Shown here piece after piece: positions 55,876 through 64,000 of a DNA stretch of 64,000 bases; the first letter of the stretch is position 1; each line of letters starts with the position of its first letter. The stretch spans positions 1,667,501 to 1,731,500 of the forward strand of contig NZ_JQNB01000001.1 in assembly GCF_000745005.1 (NCBI RefSeq), given 5' to 3'. The notes under the pieces were generated by a model, which had not been told where the DNA came from, searched no databases, and was given only the letters and a program-made list of their open reading frames with translations. Made by a program: the position numbers and the translations under genes. This DNA comes from Luteibacter sp. 9135 (lineage in GTDB: Bacteria; Pseudomonadota; Gammaproteobacteria; Xanthomonadales; Rhodanobacteraceae).

Positions 55876-56649
55876 ATGGCGTTCAAGATCGACAAGAAGA
55901 TCACGGGCTACAACGTCGTCAAGCCCGAGGACAAGGCCACCCCGGCCCCCGCCGCCGCGCCCGTGAAAGAGGCTGCGCCGGTTGCCGAAGTGATCCAGAT
56001 GCACGAGAGCCTGGAGCGTCCGGAAACCCTGGTCGGCAACACGTACAAGATCAAGTCGCCGCTCTTCGAGCACGCGCTGTACGTGACCGTCAACGACATC
56101 GTCCTGAACGCCGGTACCCCGCACGAACAGCGTCGCCCCTTCGAGCTATTCATCAACTCGAAGAACATGGACCACTTCCAGTGGATCGTGGCGCTGACCC
56201 GAATCCTGTCCGCCGTCTTCCGCAAGGGTGGCGACGTGACGTTCATCGTCGAAGAGCTCAAGGCTGTCTTCGACCCGCGCGGCGGCTACTTCAAGGCCGG
56301 CGGCGTCTACATGCCCAGCATCGTGGCCGAGATCGGCGGCGTGGTGGAGCAGCACATGAAGTCGATCGGCCTGATCCACGACCCGGAAATGAGCGATGCG
56401 ACCCGCCAGCTGATCGCAGAGAAGCGCGCCGCTTACGAGAAGGCCAACGCGCCCAAGCCCGTCGCCGCCGTCACCCCGGCCGTGGTGGGATCCGGCGATG
56501 TCGGGGATAACCAGGATGCGGCTGCGCATACCAATGCCTCGGGCTTCCCGGCTGGCGCGACGCTTTGTGCCAAGTGCAATACGCAGGCGTTGGTGCTGAT
56601 GGATGGGTGCCAGACTTGTTTGAATTGTGGGTATTCGAAGTGCGGGTGA
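55876..56649 (+). CDS. class II ribonucleotide reductase C-terminal component NrdJb (TSCPD domain)
   Basis: 257 residues. Residues 45-175 are the TSCPD domain otherwise found at the end of single-chain NrdJ (FELFINSKNMDHFQWIVALT; FRKGGDVTFIVEELKAVFDP). An Ala/Pro linker follows, and the end carries six cysteines: C231, C234, C245, C248, C251 and C256, a zinc-ribbon-like and redox tail expected to re-reduce the active site of NrdJa. Separate NrdJa and NrdJb chains are known from Pseudomonas aeruginosa. AGAGAAGAG precedes the ATG. Confidence 0.92.
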   Translation: MAFKIDKKITGYNVVKPEDKATPAPAAAPVKEAAPVAEVIQMHESLERPETLVGNTYKIKSPLFEHALYVTVNDIVLNAGTPHEQRRPFELFINSKNMDHFQWIVALTRILSAVFRKGGDVTFIVEELKAVFDPRGGYFKAGGVYMPSIVAEIGGVVEQHMKSIGLIHDPEMSDATRQLIAEKRAAYEKANAPKPVAAVTPAVVGSGDVGDNQDAAAHTNASGFPAGATLCAKCNTQALVLMDGCQTCLNCGYSKCG

Positions 56650-56670
56650 GGTTCTAGCCCCGGTGTTAGA

Positions 56671-56867: not shown

Positions 56868-57305
56868 ATGGCTGACATCATGACGTCTAAGGAGCGAAGT
56901 GAGCGGATGTCCAGGATCCGCGGAAAGGATACTAAACCGGAGATGCAGGTTCGTCAGTTCCTCCACGGCCGCGGCTTCCGGTATCGCCTCCACGTAAAGG
57001 ACATGCCTGGTCGTCCGGACATGGTCCTGCCAAAATATGGTGCCGTCGTTCTAGTGGATGGCTGCTTTTGGCACGGACATGTATGTCAAGGCGGTCGCAT
57101 TCCGGGTAATAATTCAGTGTTTTGGCAAGCAAAGATTGCCGCCAATCAAGCGCGTGACCTGCGTAACCAAAAAGCCCTGGCAAGCGCTGGCTGGAAGGTC
57201 ATTCGGGTGTGGGAGTGCCAGCTGTCAACAAAAAAAATGCGCGAAAAGACACTCACTCGACTGGCAGCCAGGCTCGAAGCCTTGCAACCAAGTCAAGGGA
57301 CGTAA
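56868..57305 (+). CDS. vsr: very short patch repair endonuclease Vsr
   Basis: 145 residues, the usual size. It nicks next to T in T:G mismatches left when 5-methylcytosine deaminates, so it normally accompanies a C5 methyltransferase, which is the next gene. Conserved pieces: ERMSRIRGKDTKPEMQVR, the core GRPDMVLPKYGAVVLVDGCF with catalytic aspartate, the zinc-binding CFWHGHVC, and the C-terminal GWKVIRVWECQL. TAGGAGC lies seven bases before the ATG. Base use is clearly less GC-rich than in the genes to the left, a sign of transfer. Confidence 0.95.
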   Translation: MADIMTSKERSERMSRIRGKDTKPEMQVRQFLHGRGFRYRLHVKDMPGRPDMVLPKYGAVVLVDGCFWHGHVCQGGRIPGNNSVFWQAKIAANQARDLRNQKALASAGWKVIRVWECQLSTKKMREKTLTRLAARLEALQPSQGT

Positions 57306-57337
57306 CGTAACTGGGAAAAGCTTCCTTGAAGAACAAA

Positions 57338-58651
57338 ATGTTGAGCGTAGTTGACTTATTTGCTGGATGCGGGGGGTTTGGCCTCGGTCTAGAGCAGGCG
57401 GGGTTTACTCCGATCTACGTGAATGAGATAAATAACGACGCACGTGGCACGTACATCTCAAACCGAATGGCTAAACACGAGTGGTTCGGGTGGGATCTCG
57501 ACAAAGAGACCTGGCTGAACGCTTTCAGTTCGTCCGACGCGCGGCGCATCACACGGAAGGACTACCTGAACAAGCTGCAAGATAATTTCCGCGCGGAGTT
57601 TGGTATCCATCACGGCGATATCGATCTCGTTGTGGGAGGCCCTCCATGCCAGGGTTTCTCGGGAATCGGCCATAGGCGCTCTTATGCAGTCGAAAAAGAG
57701 GCTATGCCCTCGAATCATCTTTATAAGGACATGGCCCGCATCGTTGACGGACTCAGGCCGAAAGCATTCGTGTTCGAGAATGTGCGTGGCTTGCTAACCG
57801 GGCGATGGACCGCTGAAGGTGACAGTGGCGAAATTTGGGCAGATGTGAAGAAGGCATTTGCAAGCATTGGCGAGTACGAGCTTGCGGCCGAAGTCGTCTT
57901 CGCGAAGAACTATGGCGTGGCGCAAAATAGGCCGCGCGTGATGTTAGTGGGAATCCGCAGGGACATCGCTGGCGACATTACTCGCAAGGACGGTATAGAA
58001 GCGATCGACGGGACCGCAATCACTCGCGGCTTTATACCCAAGCCTGTCCCTGGCTCTGCGCCGAGCATCGTCGACCTTCTGGGGGACCTCGTCGACCCGA
58101 ACCATGAGAACGGAGGGGCGACGAGCGAATATCCTTCAAGGGTGCTTTGCGAAGTCCAGCGTCAATTCCGGACATCTTCCGATGGGCTGAAGGTGGCCAG
58201 CAAGGGCGACGCCGTTACGGAGCACGAGTACAGCGAGCATCGCCCAGACGTACGCAAGAAGTTTCACGCAATGATCCACGGCAAGTATTTCGAGGCCACG
58301 AGAAAGTTCGGCCAGCGGGTACTTCCTCGGGAATGGGGCGAAAAGGGACCGTCGATAACGGCCACATCAATGCCCGATGACTATGTTCATTTTGAACAAC
58401 CAAGAACGTTGACCGTGCGGGAATGGGCGCGGCTGCAAGGATTTCCCGACTGGTACCAGTTCAAGGGTAAGCGCACCACCGGCGGAATTCGTCGCGCAGG
58501 AAATCCTGTTGAAGGCAATCACGTTCGCGAGCTTCCGAAATACACCCAGATCGGCAATGCAGTTCCGGTGCCGATGGCTCAAGCGATCGGCAAGCACTTA
58601 GCCAGAATCATTCGTAACCAGACCGTAGGTTTAAAGGGGCGCAAGTCATAG
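57338..58651 (+). CDS. dcm: DNA (cytosine-5-)-methyltransferase, Dcm type
   Basis: 437 residues from ATG 57338; an in-frame TTG at 57326 is the alternative. All key C5 motifs are present: I DLFAGCGGFGLGLEQAGF, IV GGPPCQGFSGIG with catalytic C104, VI FENVRG, VIII QNRPRVMLVGI, and X IGNAVPVPMAQAIG. The target-recognition region (about 270-345) is long and its site cannot be read from sequence. It follows vsr by 32 bp, same strand. It could be a solitary Dcm or the modification part of a restriction system; a large ATPase gene converges on it. Confidence 0.94.
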   Translation: MLSVVDLFAGCGGFGLGLEQAGFTPIYVNEINNDARGTYISNRMAKHEWFGWDLDKETWLNAFSSSDARRITRKDYLNKLQDNFRAEFGIHHGDIDLVVGGPPCQGFSGIGHRRSYAVEKEAMPSNHLYKDMARIVDGLRPKAFVFENVRGLLTGRWTAEGDSGEIWADVKKAFASIGEYELAAEVVFAKNYGVAQNRPRVMLVGIRRDIAGDITRKDGIEAIDGTAITRGFIPKPVPGSAPSIVDLLGDLVDPNHENGGATSEYPSRVLCEVQRQFRTSSDGLKVASKGDAVTEHEYSEHRPDVRKKFHAMIHGKYFEATRKFGQRVLPREWGEKGPSITATSMPDDYVHFEQPRTLTVREWARLQGFPDWYQFKGKRTTGGIRRAGNPVEGNHVRELPKYTQIGNAVPVPMAQAIGKHLARIIRNQTVGLKGRKS

Positions 58652-58774: not shown

Positions 58775-61700
58775 TTATTGCCACTCGTCCCGTCTATAGA
58801 AAGGCGCGCCTTTTACAAATTCGCCTGCGACGTCGTGCGTCTTGTAGAGACACTCGTGCAACTGTAGGCTCTTGATGCGCTCTGCGACTTGCTGCAACGC
58901 GGCCGGGTCGTTCAAGCCAAGAGGTCCAAGGTCCTTTGCCGATACGTTGGGAACCTTGTGCAAGAACCAGCTGAGTAACATCTCCCGATAGTCCGTTCCA
59001 CCTGCCTTGAAGTGACTCAGGTACTGGGAGGCGAGGATCACGCCTACTCCGAACTCGCGTCCTTGAAGCAAAACTTTTCGGAGTACGTCGAACTCGTACT
59101 GCATTATGTTATCAGCTTCGTCCACCAGTAGCATCGAGTCGACGACTCGCATGGTCCCGTTCGTGCCGAGAAACGGGCGCTTCGGCGTCTTCAACATGCG
59201 CTCATAGAAAACATTGAGCATGATGGCAACCAGCATGTTCTTCGTACGATCGTCCTGGCCGAGGTCATTCAAGGCAATGACCACTACGCCCTTGAGGAAT
59301 TCGGCGGGCCCGACGATTGATGACCGGTCATCTGCGAACAGCTCCATGTCGACTATGTCACCAAGGATGCCTGAAAGAGAATCGGCGCTACCCTTGAGTG
59401 CTGCTACGTAATTGCGATGCACGTCGTGGATCGTTGGATAGATTCCGTCGCCGTACGCCGCATACGCGTCCTTGATCGCAGTTTTTAGCCTGTCGCGTTG
59501 CACAGGCCCAATGCCCGGATAAATCTTATCCAGGACGTCGGCGAAGAAGCGGTACCGTTCGAGCCACGGGCTGATCGCTTGGGACGATGCCGATAGGTCG
59601 AAGAGATTAAGCGGTAAATGCTGCGGCCTAATAACCCGGGCACCCGTTGCATTTACAAAGTCACCGATCGAGTAATCCTTCTTATAGTCAAAGATTAGAA
59701 CGTTGGGCTCAACTCCCCGATTCCCGCCCGAACCGCTCGCTATCTGATAGACGAGTGACTTCAGTAACTGTGTCTTTCCGGTACCCAGATCGCCAACGAC
59801 GCCCATGTTCAATTGGTTGAGCGCGGTGTCTCCAAGATTGAGATGTAGAACGCGTGTCTGGAATCCATCGAGAGTCTCGCCAATTCTAAGGTCCAATCCG
59901 GTCTGATCGAGTCCGTCGGACGTTTCGGCTAAGGCAGGTGGTGCCTGCGCAGGCTCCGTCTGGCGGGGGGCAACCAGCTGCGATCGCAGCGTATCGTCAC
60001 TCGCTTGGACCTCACTCGCCTTTGCGTTGTTATCTGGAAACTCGGCTTGCACTTCGAGCGTCGGCGCGCCCCATTCGACCGATCGTCGCGGCTGCGTGAC
60101 ACCGGCTGCTCTATTTTCGAGAATTAGTGTAGGTGCCGATGAGGTGGATTCAGACGGCAAAAGCCCCCAAGTGGATACACTGGCGTGCATCGATAGATAG
60201 AGATCCTCGCTGTGACCTCGTGCTATTAGGCTTGCATCTGCCTGAGAAAGCTCAATCGTTTCATTGAAGCCATCTCCGTCCGTGTCTCTCGGACCGCTGG
60301 CAGCAGAGCCATCAATGACGATGAGCCTGCCGTGCGCATCGACTTCGATCGCCAGTTCCGACGACAGTATTGCTTCCATTGCCTTCGCGTGAAGCACGGA
60401 CCACTCGCCTGCGCGTCCACTCTCTGCCAACTGTTGGCTATAGACGCGAAAGCCATATCCCACCATGGAAGCGATCAGGTTCTGATACGCCAGGCGCCAG
60501 AGAACCATTTCCTGCTCTTCCGAATAGGTAGCTTGAAGCGCTGCCAACAGAGTGGACAACGACTTTGCCTGTTCCAGCGCGTCCTGGCGTAGCGCATTTG
60601 ACATGACTCCGTGACCAGTCCGATTCTTGACCTCAATAGGCGTCAATTTGCACCGGACGACAGAATCGCTGATCGAGAGGGCGACCACGATGAGGTCTGG
60701 TCGATGCATGGTCGGTTTCTTGATCGCCTTGCCGAGATCGTCCAGATATCGCTGAAACGGATCCACGGGGATCACTAGCGTGATCAGATGCTCCCCGTTC
60801 TTTTCCGTCCAAGGACTGAGGAGGCCGCTTTCGGCGCCGGACGTGCGAAAGCTATCCTGGAGCATACGTGTAGCAACGAAAAGACCTAGGTCACCGGTCG
60901 CGCCTGAATTGCCCGCAGAGAGCCCTCTGACTGTTGGGATTCCTCGACGCGCCACCTCTTGCACGATCGCCGAAAGATGCTCGCGTGAGAGATCGCCGCA
61001 ATCCGGCAGGCGCTTGAGAACGGTCCGCATCGTCTCGATGTCGATCTCGTCGATACTGGAGAGAAGATAGTAGCCGTTACTGTCTCCGGTTCTGCCTGAG
61101 TACGACGGAAGTTCGTAGTCCCATAGATACGTCCCCTCCAGCCAGTTGCCAAGAAAGCACGCTGGGTCGACGGCCGAGGACGAGACCGCCACAAACTCGG
61201 CCTTCTCCAGGGACCTCTTGACGGCAGCAATGCTGGGTGCGAAGACGTAGCCAACGGGACCATCGCCATAGCCTTCCAGCCTCGAAATCGCTTTCGCCGT
61301 GTTGTCCGCAATGCCATCACCCGATATCCGTGCTGGTGCGGACACGCGGGATTCGCATAGGAACTGGCCTCCGCCAGTCCTCTGTTGTTCTCGGATCCTC
61401 ATCCGCACTAGGCCGCCAATCCCTAGAGGGGAGGAGAGCTTTGTCGGCAAGGCAGCAGCGTTTGACGTTTCCAATTGCGCGATGATTGCCAGATCGTGGT
61501 GTCCGATCGTATCCGGTGCGGAATACCATTGCACAGCGTTGGACGTGTCTTCCGCCAGATTCGAAATCTCCGCATCGTCGGGACGGACGCCATCACCGCG
61601 CTCGTCGAATACATGAATCTCGCTCGCACCAATTCCTAGCGTCTTTGTATTGCCGTTCTCATCCCCGGAAAAATTCTTTCTACCCCAAGAAAGCATTCCA

Positions 61701-64000
61701 TCGTTGCAAGCATTGTTCTGTCCCGCGGCGCTCGATACGAGGACGCCGATCACGGGTTTAGCGACCAGCATCTCACACACATCGTCCATCGCGCGGTGGA
61801 CTTGCGAGACGCTGAATCCGCTCGAAATTCCACCCACAAGGAGGCCCATCTCACGATCGAGGGGTGCCGAAGCACTCAGTCCTGCAAGGCGGTCCAGTCG
61901 GTTGGTATTCCAGAGGATGCCCCAGTAATCAGAATTGCATTCGACTGAAAAATACGCCACATCGCTGGTGCCGCCGGTGGCGTCGCGAAGCGGCAACACG
62001 ATGGTGTCAGGTACACAGTCAGGATCAAGTATGCTTGCGGCCGGGCAAGGTAGCTTCCTCGACGCAAGATACATTGCCCGTTGCGCCAAGCAGTGCCAGG
62101 CGAAACGGATTGGATGAAACGGGGAAACGATGATTGCGTTCGGGACTTGCTCAAGCGTAACTCCGTCGTTCTCCAGCCCCATTACCAATCCGATGTCGCA
62201 CCAGCAAGCCTCGCTGGGCGACGAAGAAAGCCAATCAAGGTAGGACCGGATATACGCGTCAACTGAAGCCTCGAATTCGCGATCGGTCGCTAGCAATTCA
62301 CCCAAATTGGTCGACTCGACCAAGTCATTGCCTTCAGCCCCTCGCACCTTGCGCGCGAGCTCGACCCTTGCCATGGTAAACGTTTCTGGCGGGCGCATCT
62401 CGGAAGGCTGTGGGCGGGGGTCGTTCAAGAACCTACCGGCTGAAAAGATTGTGTCTTCGGCCGAAGACCACTCGCGACGCCGCCAGTCAGCCGCGTAGTC
62501 TGGTGCAAGAACGAATGGGTAGTACGAGCGGGCAGCGCATGATTCTTCGATGAGCCAGCCTTGTAGCTGAGCGCATCGAGCCTGATTATCGGCGTGCACC
62601 GTGCGTGGCACACGTCCGTTGTCACGTCGAGCGTTCCGTGCAAGATGGAATTCGAAGTAGCTCTTGCATGCTTCGCCAGCCGCTTCCTCGGCCAATAAAT
62701 GGATTTGAAACTTCTCGGATGCTTTCGACTCGGGACGTTTTACATCGAACTGGTAGGCGCGCTCACCACCAGCTTCGACTTCCAGCCCGTACTCACATTC
62801 AGCGACTTGGCCAATGCGTGTGGGCCCGGTAGCCTCGGGATCAACGCCGTCGTCTTCGCTTATAACGAGCGCGCATTGCGACAATATTTCGACGCCTGGC
62901 CTCACGTAAATGTCAAGGTAATGACGACCTACGCCGGACATCTCTAGTGTCGTCTCAATCGGCTTTCCTGGGGCAGCCTTGGGAATTTTTACCTTGTTGG
63001 CGGAACGCGAGAAAACGACAAGCCCAGGTTCCCAAGTTGCGAGGGAGATAAGCTTTGTCGTTGCCTTTCCTGCGTCGATGCTCACCGCCTCGACCGTGTA
63101 CTTAATCGGCGTTCTGTGCATCGGGATCGCTTCGTCATCGAATTCGATGAACCGATCGCCTGAGAGAACCCATTCTCGCCGGTTAGCCGCTCCGCCAGGT
63201 GCGTCGCGCGTGACGCGAACTGTTATTTCCTCGTTCTCTTCCGTGGCTCTTATCTCAATGCGCAGTCGTGCGATATCGCGTACGACGGGCACCGCGCTCT
63301 TGCCCTGAACCGCAAGAGGATTGATGCATGATAGGGCGATCTCCGCATTTCGCGCCTCCTCTTCTAACAGGTTTTCCCACCGATCGAGCGTCAGGCCGCT
63401 CCACCAAGCTGGCGGCGGGCTAATATCGTCGGGCGCGTAAAAGTACGGCATGGACCTCTTTAGCGCCGTGACGATTTCGCACTTTCGCCGGATATGCGCG
63501 AGAAATGCGTCCAGAAGATCTTTCTCCGTCGGGTTTGCTGCACGCTCTTTAAGCTGCTCTATCCCGATTCCCAAGTTGGCGCTTTCAAATTTCTCCACCA
63601 GAGCGTCAAGAATGGATGCTTTTCTTTCGGCGTCTAGTCGCTGGTCTTCGGATGGCGGAAAGCCCGCAGCCAAACTTACGCGGTCGTTCAGCGTCATTCC
63701 GCCGTCACGCAGTTCCCAAAGCCGTCTTATGACTTCCCAGGCCCCGATCCTGCTCACGTCATGCTGGTCTGCAGCGTCTGCGGCCACGACTGCTTTGAGA
63801 ACTAGGCTGCGCGCTTCATCAAGCTGGGCTGCATCACCATCGCCGATACCACCATCAACCATTTCCTGTACAAAAGAGGAGTTCCACCAGGTTGTTATCG
63901 AGGATCCTCCCTCATTCGCGGCGGACGGGACGCCAAATGCCTTCCGAGTAGATTCGTGCGTGTCACTCGCCTGTCCGCCCGGTGAAACGAGCGTTAGAAA
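58775..64000 (-). CDS. very large HerA/FtsK-like ATPase with predicted PD-(D/E)XK nuclease core, DptH-like; 5' end outside window
   Basis: The frame is open for 1695 codons from an internal Met at 63862 and stays open for 46 more to the window edge, so the true start is outside. Numbering from 63862: residues 1-1000 have no domain I recognise. D1056 (RPDLIVV), E1077 and K1079 (PIEVKNR) form a PD-(D/E)XK-type nuclease core. The ATPase domain has Walker A GDLGTGKT (1357-1364) and Walker B LLVDEAD (D1581, E1582), then GVILASQYLSHF, the HerA/FtsK pattern. Size and layout recall DptH, the ATPase of phosphorothioate-dependent restriction. Base use is like vsr and dcm, unlike the core genome. The DptH label is inference; the two domain calls are read from motifs. 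Confidence 0.72.
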   Translation of the reverse strand, partial: FLTLVSPGGQASDTHESTRKAFGVPSAANEGGSSITTWWNSSFVQEMVDGGIGDGDAAQLDEARSLVLKAVVAADAADQHDVSRIGAWEVIRRLWELRDGGMTLNDRVSLAAGFPPSEDQRLDAERKASILDALVEKFESANLGIGIEQLKERAANPTEKDLLDAFLAHIRRKCEIVTALKRSMPYFYAPDDISPPPAWWSGLTLDRWENLLEEEARNAEIALSCINPLAVQGKSAVPVVRDIARLRIEIRATEENEEITVRVTRDAPGGAANRREWVLSGDRFIEFDDEAIPMHRTPIKYTVEAVSIDAGKATTKLISLATWEPGLVVFSRSANKVKIPKAAPGKPIETTLEMSGVGRHYLDIYVRPGVEILSQCALVISEDDGVDPEATGPTRIGQVAECEYGLEVEAGGERAYQFDVKRPESKASEKFQIHLLAEEAAGEACKSYFEFHLARNARRDNGRVPRTVHADNQARCAQLQGWLIEESCAARSYYPFVLAPDYAADWRRREWSSAEDTIFSAGRFLNDPRPQPSEMRPPETFTMARVELARKVRGAEGNDLVESTNLGELLATDREFEASVDAYIRSYLDWLSSSPSEACWCDIGLVMGLENDGVTLEQVPNAIIVSPFHPIRFAWHCLAQRAMYLASRKLPCPAASILDPDCVPDTIVLPLRDATGGTSDVAYFSVECNSDYWGILWNTNRLDRLAGLSASAPLDREMGLLVGGISSGFSVSQVHRAMDDVCEMLVAKPVIGVLVSSAAGQNNACNDGMLSWGRKNFSGDENGNTKTLGIGASEIHVFDERGDGVRPDDAEISNLAEDTSNAVQWYSAPDTIGHHDLAIIAQLETSNAAALPTKLSSPLGIGGLVRMRIREQQRTGGGQFLCESRVSAPARISGDGIADNTAKAISRLEGYGDGPVGYVFAPSIAAVKRSLEKAEFVAVSSSAVDPACFLGNWLEGTYLWDYELPSYSGRTGDSNGYYLLSSIDEIDIETMRTVLKRLPDCGDLSREHLSAIVQEVARRGIPTVRGLSAGNSGATGDLGLFVATRMLQDSFRTSGAESGLLSPWTEKNGEHLITLVIPVDPFQRYLDDLGKAIKKPTMHRPDLIVVALSISDSVVRCKLTPIEVKNRTGHGVMSNALRQDALEQAKSLSTLLAALQATYSEEQEMVLWRLAYQNLIASMVGYGFRVYSQQLAESGRAGEWSVLHAKAMEAILSSELAIEVDAHGRLIVIDGSAASGPRDTDGDGFNETIELSQADASLIARGHSEDLYLSMHASVSTWGLLPSESTSSAPTLILENRAAGVTQPRRSVEWGAPTLEVQAEFPDNNAKASEVQASDDTLRSQLVAPRQTEPAQAPPALAETSDGLDQTGLDLRIGETLDGFQTRVLHLNLGDTALNQLNMGVVGDLGTGKTQLLKSLVYQIASGSGGNRGVEPNVLIFDYKKDYSIGDFVNATGARVIRPQHLPLNLFDLSASSQAISPWLERYRFFADVLDKIYPGIGPVQRDRLKTAIKDAYAAYGDGIYPTIHDVHRNYVAALKGSADSLSGILGDIVDMELFADDRSSIVGPAEFLKGVVVIALNDLGQDDRTKNMLVAIMLNVFYERMLKTPKRPFLGTNGTMRVVDSMLLVDEADNIMQYEFDVLRKVLLQGREFGVGVILASQYLSHFKAGGTDYREMLLSWFLHKVPNVSAKDLGPLGLNDPAALQQVAERIKSLQLHECLYKTHDVAGEFVKGAPFYRRDEWQ

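Follow-up and report, generated by a model that had tools for sequence, protein, structure and literature searches.

An F-G-H module built like DndFGH and tied to a gene for a cytosine-5 methyltransferase, mostly also to vsr, is a real and recurrent arrangement in bacterial genomes. Here we describe one such locus, which lies across the right edge of the window (the whole stretch of 64,000 nucleotides that was analysed; C1:1667501-1731500 in the whole genome), together with its relatives. By analogy with known systems, vsr, dcm, F, G and H probably make up a single restriction-modification-like defence system whose self mark is 5-methylcytosine in place of phosphorothioate. This five-gene set is found again in many bacteria and is therefore probably a kind of self/non-self DNA defence that has so far gone unrecognised.

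In the sections of the closest study covered here (PMC10853773), DndFGH is called standalone, without an inbuilt modification module, and cytosine methylases are tied to CxC-DndE systems, not to DndFGH; the term Vsr is absent from its main text. No paper with both DndH and Vsr was found, a weak absence with most subscription papers and bioRxiv preprints outside the search, and no earlier description of a methyltransferase-linked F-G-H was found in the literature searched, whose partial coverage makes this absence weak as well. A lineage that spans six phyla and hardly ever lacks a cytosine-5 methyltransferase offers a concrete, testable answer for that lineage.

The five-gene locus and its proteins

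The F-G-H operon is completed by two genes past the window edge, in the order of DptF-DptG-DptH and with an F/G overlap of 4 bases, and makes up a five-gene set with vsr-dcm (Table 1). H is the right neighbour of dcm, and TSCPD and ribonucleotide reductase genes stand left of vsr (Pfam). A whole-genome profile search with PF00145 gave a single match in this genome, the dcm gene of the window.

Table 1. Features of the locus. Positions refer to the window, except those given for L003, whose position 1 is the first base past window base 64000.
Feature	Position	Strand	Size or residues	Evidence
vsr, very short patch repair mismatch endonuclease	56868..57305	+	145 aa	NCBIfam TIGR00632 137 bits; Pfam PF03852
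dcm, cytosine-5 DNA methyltransferase	57326..58651	+	up to 441 aa	PF00145 E 2.3e-58; PPCQ and ENV motifs
H, DndH-like ATPase-nuclease	58775..64000	-	in-window part, 1741 of about 1849 codons	open frame; PADLOC DndH
HerA/FtsK-type ATPase domain of H	58838..59911	-	P0002 1506-1863	hhalign, PDB 7es4
Walker B D1769-E1770 of H	59117..59122	-		69/69 with a residue there
Walker A GDLGTGKT of H	59771..59794	-	P0002 1545-1552	invariant columns
Nuclease E1265-x-K1267 of H	60626..60634	-		70/70
Nuclease D1244 of H	60695..60697	-		70/70
Methyltransferase-fold (Rossmann) domain of H	61049..61813	-	P0002 872-1126	
Ig-like beta-sandwich pair of H	62684..63355	-	P0002 358-581	
G	L003:338-1840, beyond window edge	same as H	500 aa	
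F	L003:1837-3912, beyond window edge	same as H	691 aa	

The open frame of at least 1741 codons that a preliminary description of the window had placed at its edge is real and continues outside; in the whole genome it occupies L002:10775-16426, with 1883 codons counted from the first possible start. The likeliest start is a GTG 13 bases past the stop of the upstream gene and 324 bases outside the window edge (residue 35 of the 1883-codon frame), which would give a protein of 1849 aa. The nuclease-type triad named earlier (D1056, E1077 and K1079) is present and corresponds to D1244, E1265 and K1267 of P0002 (H), 188 being added to each number, and the complete Walker A and Walker B of the HerA/FtsK type lie where that description had put them. 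D1244, E1265, K1267, Q1286 and G1550-K1551-T1552 are identical in all 70 aligned H proteins (own included), as is D1769-E1770 in all 69 that have a residue at that column.

By sequence, the resemblance to DptH proposed at the same time stood only for the HerA/FtsK domain, where hhalign against canonical DptH gave a probability of 100 (E 3.9e-45) and PDB 7es4 was matched at E 1.8e-66; over the first 1500 residues, profile comparison with four canonical proteins gave nothing convincing. PADLOC matched the C-terminal part to DndH with seven models (best E 4.8e-68), and TIGR03237, the NCBIfam model of canonical DptH, did not appear for P0002 at any E-value up to 1. The N-terminal 1000 residues had been taken to lack any visible domain; they are not featureless, because the beta-sandwich pair and the methyltransferase-fold domain lie there.

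The nuclease elements of H were judged by the PD-(D/E)XK motif order. In the AlphaFold2 model (pLDDT 88.8, pTM 0.90), D stands just ahead of one strand, E and K end the next, and Q lies in the helix after it, a predicted placement that agrees with this order. Foldseek with the whole model returned no match at E 0.001 or better; the VIA list for the model was filled by the methyltransferase domain, and chains missing from VIA lists exclude nothing. The conserved stretch D-x-D-x-D-G-F-x-E that follows the nuclease domain (window 60257-60298; P0002 1377-1390) resembles a calcium-binding loop.

The F protein of this locus has a weak SspF match (PADLOC), a match shared by 7 of 20 members of its family (best 1.2e-6). 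With loose patterns, Walker A was present in 70/71 and the Walker B asparagine in 68/71 F frames; stricter patterns gave 48/70 and 65/70 trimmed sequences, respectively. In size, G would fit a triple winged-helix protein. With shallow profiles, F and G gave no convincing similarity to four canonical DptF/DptG proteins, and none was seen between G and the four DptG. Up to E 1, PADLOC listed neither SspG nor SspH for P0003 or P0002.

The left edge of the set is strain-specific, because the DNA similarity to congeners ends at 56649-56652 in all nine loci fetched (12 congeners have the TSCPD gene), and neither F, G, H nor vsr is present in any of the nine within the stretch compared beyond that point. 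P0007, a gene farther right, has a close whole-length relative in only 1 of 12 congeners. The content of position 56650, after the TSCPD gene, differs among congeners, and the spot is perhaps an insertion hot spot; one congener locus (L164) carries another, distant cytosine-5 methyltransferase there.

Linkage of methyltransferase and vsr to F-G-H

Among 5.8 billion proteins searched, 914 were related to H at an E-value of 0.001 or better. The loci were collected with an H-only query (22-row profile) over genome contigs, which yielded 77 distinct loci (best 80 of 84 relatives) and in which the methyltransferase played no role, and they were annotated with iterated profiles. A locus was evaluable if F was present with at least 1.4 kb on each side, which applied to 59 of the 78 loci (the 77 and our own); the other 19 had less than 1.4 kb on a side or were without F.

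In all 59 evaluable loci a cytosine-5 methyltransferase gene was present, and in 58 it stands no more than 1 kb from F-G-H; in the exception, L079, the distance is 7.9 kb. Among loci that also matched the G model the proportion within 1 kb is 49/49. The chance expectation from gene density (111 PF00145 matches in about 270.7 Mb of 50 carrier genomes, rounded sizes summed and fragments counted) comes to about 0.002 per locus within 1 kb and to 0.008 within 10 kb, values that are too low if defence genes cluster. The vsr gene was found in 43 of the 59 loci and was not detected in 16. The position of vsr-dcm beside F-G-H is thus not incidental but a recurrent linkage. Overall, 70 of the 78 loci contain the methyltransferase; of the eight that do not, five end at a contig end (L007, L040, L066, L067, L074), and three (L047, L059, L065) have H with both flanks, yet F, G and the methyltransferase were undetected.

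Gene order was compared in 70 loci that also served for the alignments: our own locus, two plasmid loci (L087 and L088) and 67 of the 77. In 52 of them all four genes share one strand in the order methyltransferase-F-G-H, with the methyltransferase directly upstream of F. The methyltransferase lies downstream of H in 17 others, and in 12 of these the two genes are on opposite strands, as they are in the window. An annotated record of Sinorhizobium fredii lists, in this order, a DNA cytosine methyltransferase, two hypothetical proteins, an ATP-binding protein and vsr. Carrier genomes of 50 of the 77 loci were scanned for DndC and PF00145, and in 20 of these the PF00145 match is the only one. 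The full methyltransferase-F-G-H-vsr set was also seen on a 45-kb viral contig (L154). In Arenimonas daejeonensis (L036:6386-15483), F, G and H are broken over several frames, as pseudogenes or through sequencing errors, and the methyltransferase and vsr occupy one frame each.

In a tree of 79 H proteins, 72 methyltransferase-linked ones fall on one side of a branch with a support of 99; the tree was a quick build and carried a warning of long branches meeting. This side comprises Pseudomonadota, Myxococcota, Actinomycetota, Bacteroidota, Planctomycetota and Verrucomicrobiota. The F-G-H system is sparse, since the H profile matched only 2 of 369 Gammaproteobacteria genomes. Two further Gammaproteobacteria hold F-G-H-methyltransferase (L124) and, at a contig edge, F-H-methyltransferase (L121, whose genome the H profile did not list). 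A 795-aa HATPase protein directly follows H in L124 (L124:2440-4824).

Phosphorothioate genes just past the window edge had been the other expectation of the preliminary description. The genes found there are F- and G-like, but no DndC match was obtained in the genome (with a model that gave matches in 5/14 control genomes, above cut-off in 0/14) and no DndB-E match at the locus, so the candidate dnd locus was rejected. By tblastn, DndB, C, D and E were likewise absent from all 77 loci within the fetched stretches. A search with TIGR03237 over 369 genomes gave no match, and it is uninformative on absence because the controls also gave nothing. DndC-profile matches at E 0.001 or better occur in 4 of the 50 carrier genomes and not in the other 46; one is above the cut-off (genome of L058), and another reached 1.4e-37 (genome of L034).

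The dptFGH genes of E. coli and Aliivibrio adjoin dndBCDE. Among the phosphorothioate-type FGH loci, L085, L141, L142 and L143 have dndBCDE (L085 and L141 being nearly identical DNA) and L146 has dndD-dndE seen; no cytosine-5 methyltransferase was found in any of the five within the fetched stretch. In dptFGH of Massilia (L086), neither dnd genes nor a cytosine-5 methyltransferase were found, and the remote DndH-like loci L149 and L150 are without cytosine-5 methyltransferase and vsr.

Exchange of methyltransferases and proposed mechanism

The methyltransferases form eleven groups by single linkage at 50% identity. Their tree requires 23 changes of group label, the least possible number being 5; the labels are five H lineages, cut from the H tree, plus methyltransferases without F-G-H, and those of L036, L075, L012, L051, L033 and L016 were labelled as unlinked though their loci hold H. 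The methyltransferase type of the window occurs with H from all five lineages. The H protein of L018 is 87-91% identical to those of L037, L062, L015 and L041 and shows no stretch of lower identity peculiar to itself, the one variable linker being different in every pair, and its methyltransferase belongs to another family; the methyltransferase of L056 is 90% identical to that of L031, and the H proteins are very different. No co-variation of reader parts with methyltransferase type was seen in H, F or G between L018 and L037/L062/L015/L041, nor between L056 and L064/L061/L031/L050; only the H linker at about 1381-1440 stands out, and it varies in all pairs of the L018/L037 type.

Judged from these comparisons, methyltransferases are exchanged between F-G-H lineages, and the partner is replaced, not lost, which argues for a required function of 5-methylcytosine. 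The same exchange argues against recognition parts of F-G-H that track the methyltransferase site, unless the methyltransferases share one site. As the candidate site-reading parts of H, F and G did not change with the methyltransferase, isospecific methyltransferases or a site-independent reader would be needed. It is possible, if rather doubtful, that one conserved target site is read across phyla by a large translocating nuclease complex, with isospecific methyltransferases and the methyltransferase-fold domain of H as reader of unmethylated cytosine.

The methyltransferase subfamily is not exclusive to the system. Among seven strong profile matches in the 369 Gammaproteobacteria, three lie beside F-G-H, one in a DISARM-like row, and three have no F-G-H in the fetched stretch. 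A C-terminal signature is present in 71/72 F-G-H-linked methyltransferases, in 3/3 strong matches without F-G-H and in 0/5 weak ones; the DISARM-like enzyme was scored 0/1 in one count, yet fits another version of the pattern. A CCWGG target, guessed by analogy with the DISARM methyltransferase, was dropped because the shared signature is a mark of the subfamily and not of proven specificity.

Gene content, intact catalytic residues, a near-invariant linkage in six phyla, loci free of dnd genes and repeated methyltransferase exchange were seen directly. Marking and restriction, with discrimination by F-G-H, would proceed by analogy with the phosphorothioate-linked DndFGH. The dcm methyltransferase would place 5-methylcytosine onto the target site of the host chromosome. 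F-G-H would act as a DNA-scanning complex. In it, H would move the DNA with its HerA/FtsK ATPase, site reading would fall to G together with the methyltransferase-fold domain of H, and DNA with unmarked sites would be cut by the PD-(D/E)XK domain of H. Vsr corrects T:G mismatches from deaminated 5-methylcytosine, and in this system it may keep the self sites by such repair. The pairing with 5-methylcytosine suggested in the preliminary description is thus borne out as a gene linkage in many genomes, and the step from linkage to discrimination by F-G-H is drawn from analogy.

F-G-H might instead be a standalone complex that senses nucleotides or phage macromolecules, as has been put forward for DndFGH, with dcm-vsr a mere neighbour in a defence island. 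This would suit the published DndFGH model, which has no inbuilt modification module in the sections of PMC10853773 covered here, and also the parts of F, G and H that stay unchanged upon methyltransferase replacement. We regard it as unlikely, given an adjacency in 58/59 loci against about 0.002 per locus from gene density, the succession of a replaced methyltransferase by another cytosine-5 methyltransferase, and the lack of such genes in the phosphorothioate-type loci examined. Hardly any evaluable F-G-H locus is without the methyltransferase, which would also be expected if this enzyme were an antidote or regulator of a toxic F-G-H (addiction) and phage protection were abortive and not a restriction of unmarked DNA; a review, in the part covered here (PMC12707154), states that DndFGH can turn toxic when its modification partner is missing. 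The presence of Vsr in 43/59 loci, however, better suits a long-kept genome-wide methylation than an antidote role, and we consider addiction quite improbable.

A reliance of F-G-H on phosphorothioate made elsewhere in the genome, with 5-methylcytosine unrelated, could draw on the four carrier genomes with a DndC-profile match, one of them above the cut-off, but DndC matches are absent from our own genome and from 46/50 carriers (by the model that exceeded its cut-off in 0/14 controls), which makes it very improbable.

Comparison with known systems

With DndFGH/DptFGH the locus shares the order F-G-H, the HerA/FtsK ATPase and nuclease triad of H, the Walker A of F, and the methyltransferase-fold and two beta-sandwich domains of H. 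It differs in having a cytosine-5 methyltransferase and vsr in place of dnd genes, and also in protein sequence, since neither F nor G nor H over its first 1500 residues has convincing profile similarity to the four canonical proteins. In the sections of PMC10853773 covered here, DndFGH is described as an H protein with HerA/FtsK ATPase, restriction nuclease, inactive methyltransferase and two beta-sandwiches, an F protein with P-loop, Walker A and an asparagine at Walker B, and a triple winged-helix G. Of this architecture, we found the F-G-H order, the HerA/FtsK domain at the end of H, the nuclease catalytic residues, the inactive methyltransferase domain and two beta-sandwiches of H, and the P-loop of F. 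In phosphorothioate-dependent Dnd systems dndBCDE stand beside FGH, which is not so here. SspFGH is similar in the weak SspF profile match of F and different in that PADLOC gives P0003/P0002 no SspG/SspH match up to E 1.

Type II restriction-modification systems with a 5-methylcytosine methyltransferase and Vsr have the same pair of genes, whereas F-G-H here occupies the place of the endonuclease. On the left side of vsr no hidden type II endonuclease was seen: the five frames scanned there gave no Pfam match to a nuclease family. DISARM class 2 and Druantia type II have related methyltransferases (PADLOC; DruM2 best 1.1e-60, DrmMII best 4.3e-50), with MTase_II models ranked ahead of both, but neither DrmA/DrmB nor DruE came up when seven proteins were scanned with PADLOC (for P0008, among the best 25 of 61 matches). 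In a DISARM-like row elsewhere (L119:9247-17193), a methyltransferase from the same subfamily stands ahead of a NERD-helicase, a helicase-like protein of 1051 aa and an MZB-domain protein.

The methylation-associated defence system (MADS) combines base methylation with a HerA-type ATPase. It is similar in this respect, and P0002 (H) matches mad8 at 1.4e-12; it differs in that a C5 methyltransferase and F are present here and no mad7 match was found in P0003 or P0004. The row L149:798-11531 comprises a mad7/SspG-like protein, an N6 DNA methylase with a type I specificity subunit, and a DndH-like protein of 1756 aa, and appears from its proteins to be MADS-like, with the same kind of ATPase beside adenine-type methylation. 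One restriction machine would then work with different DNA marks: sulphur in Dnd, 5-methylcytosine here and perhaps N6-adenine in MADS-like loci.
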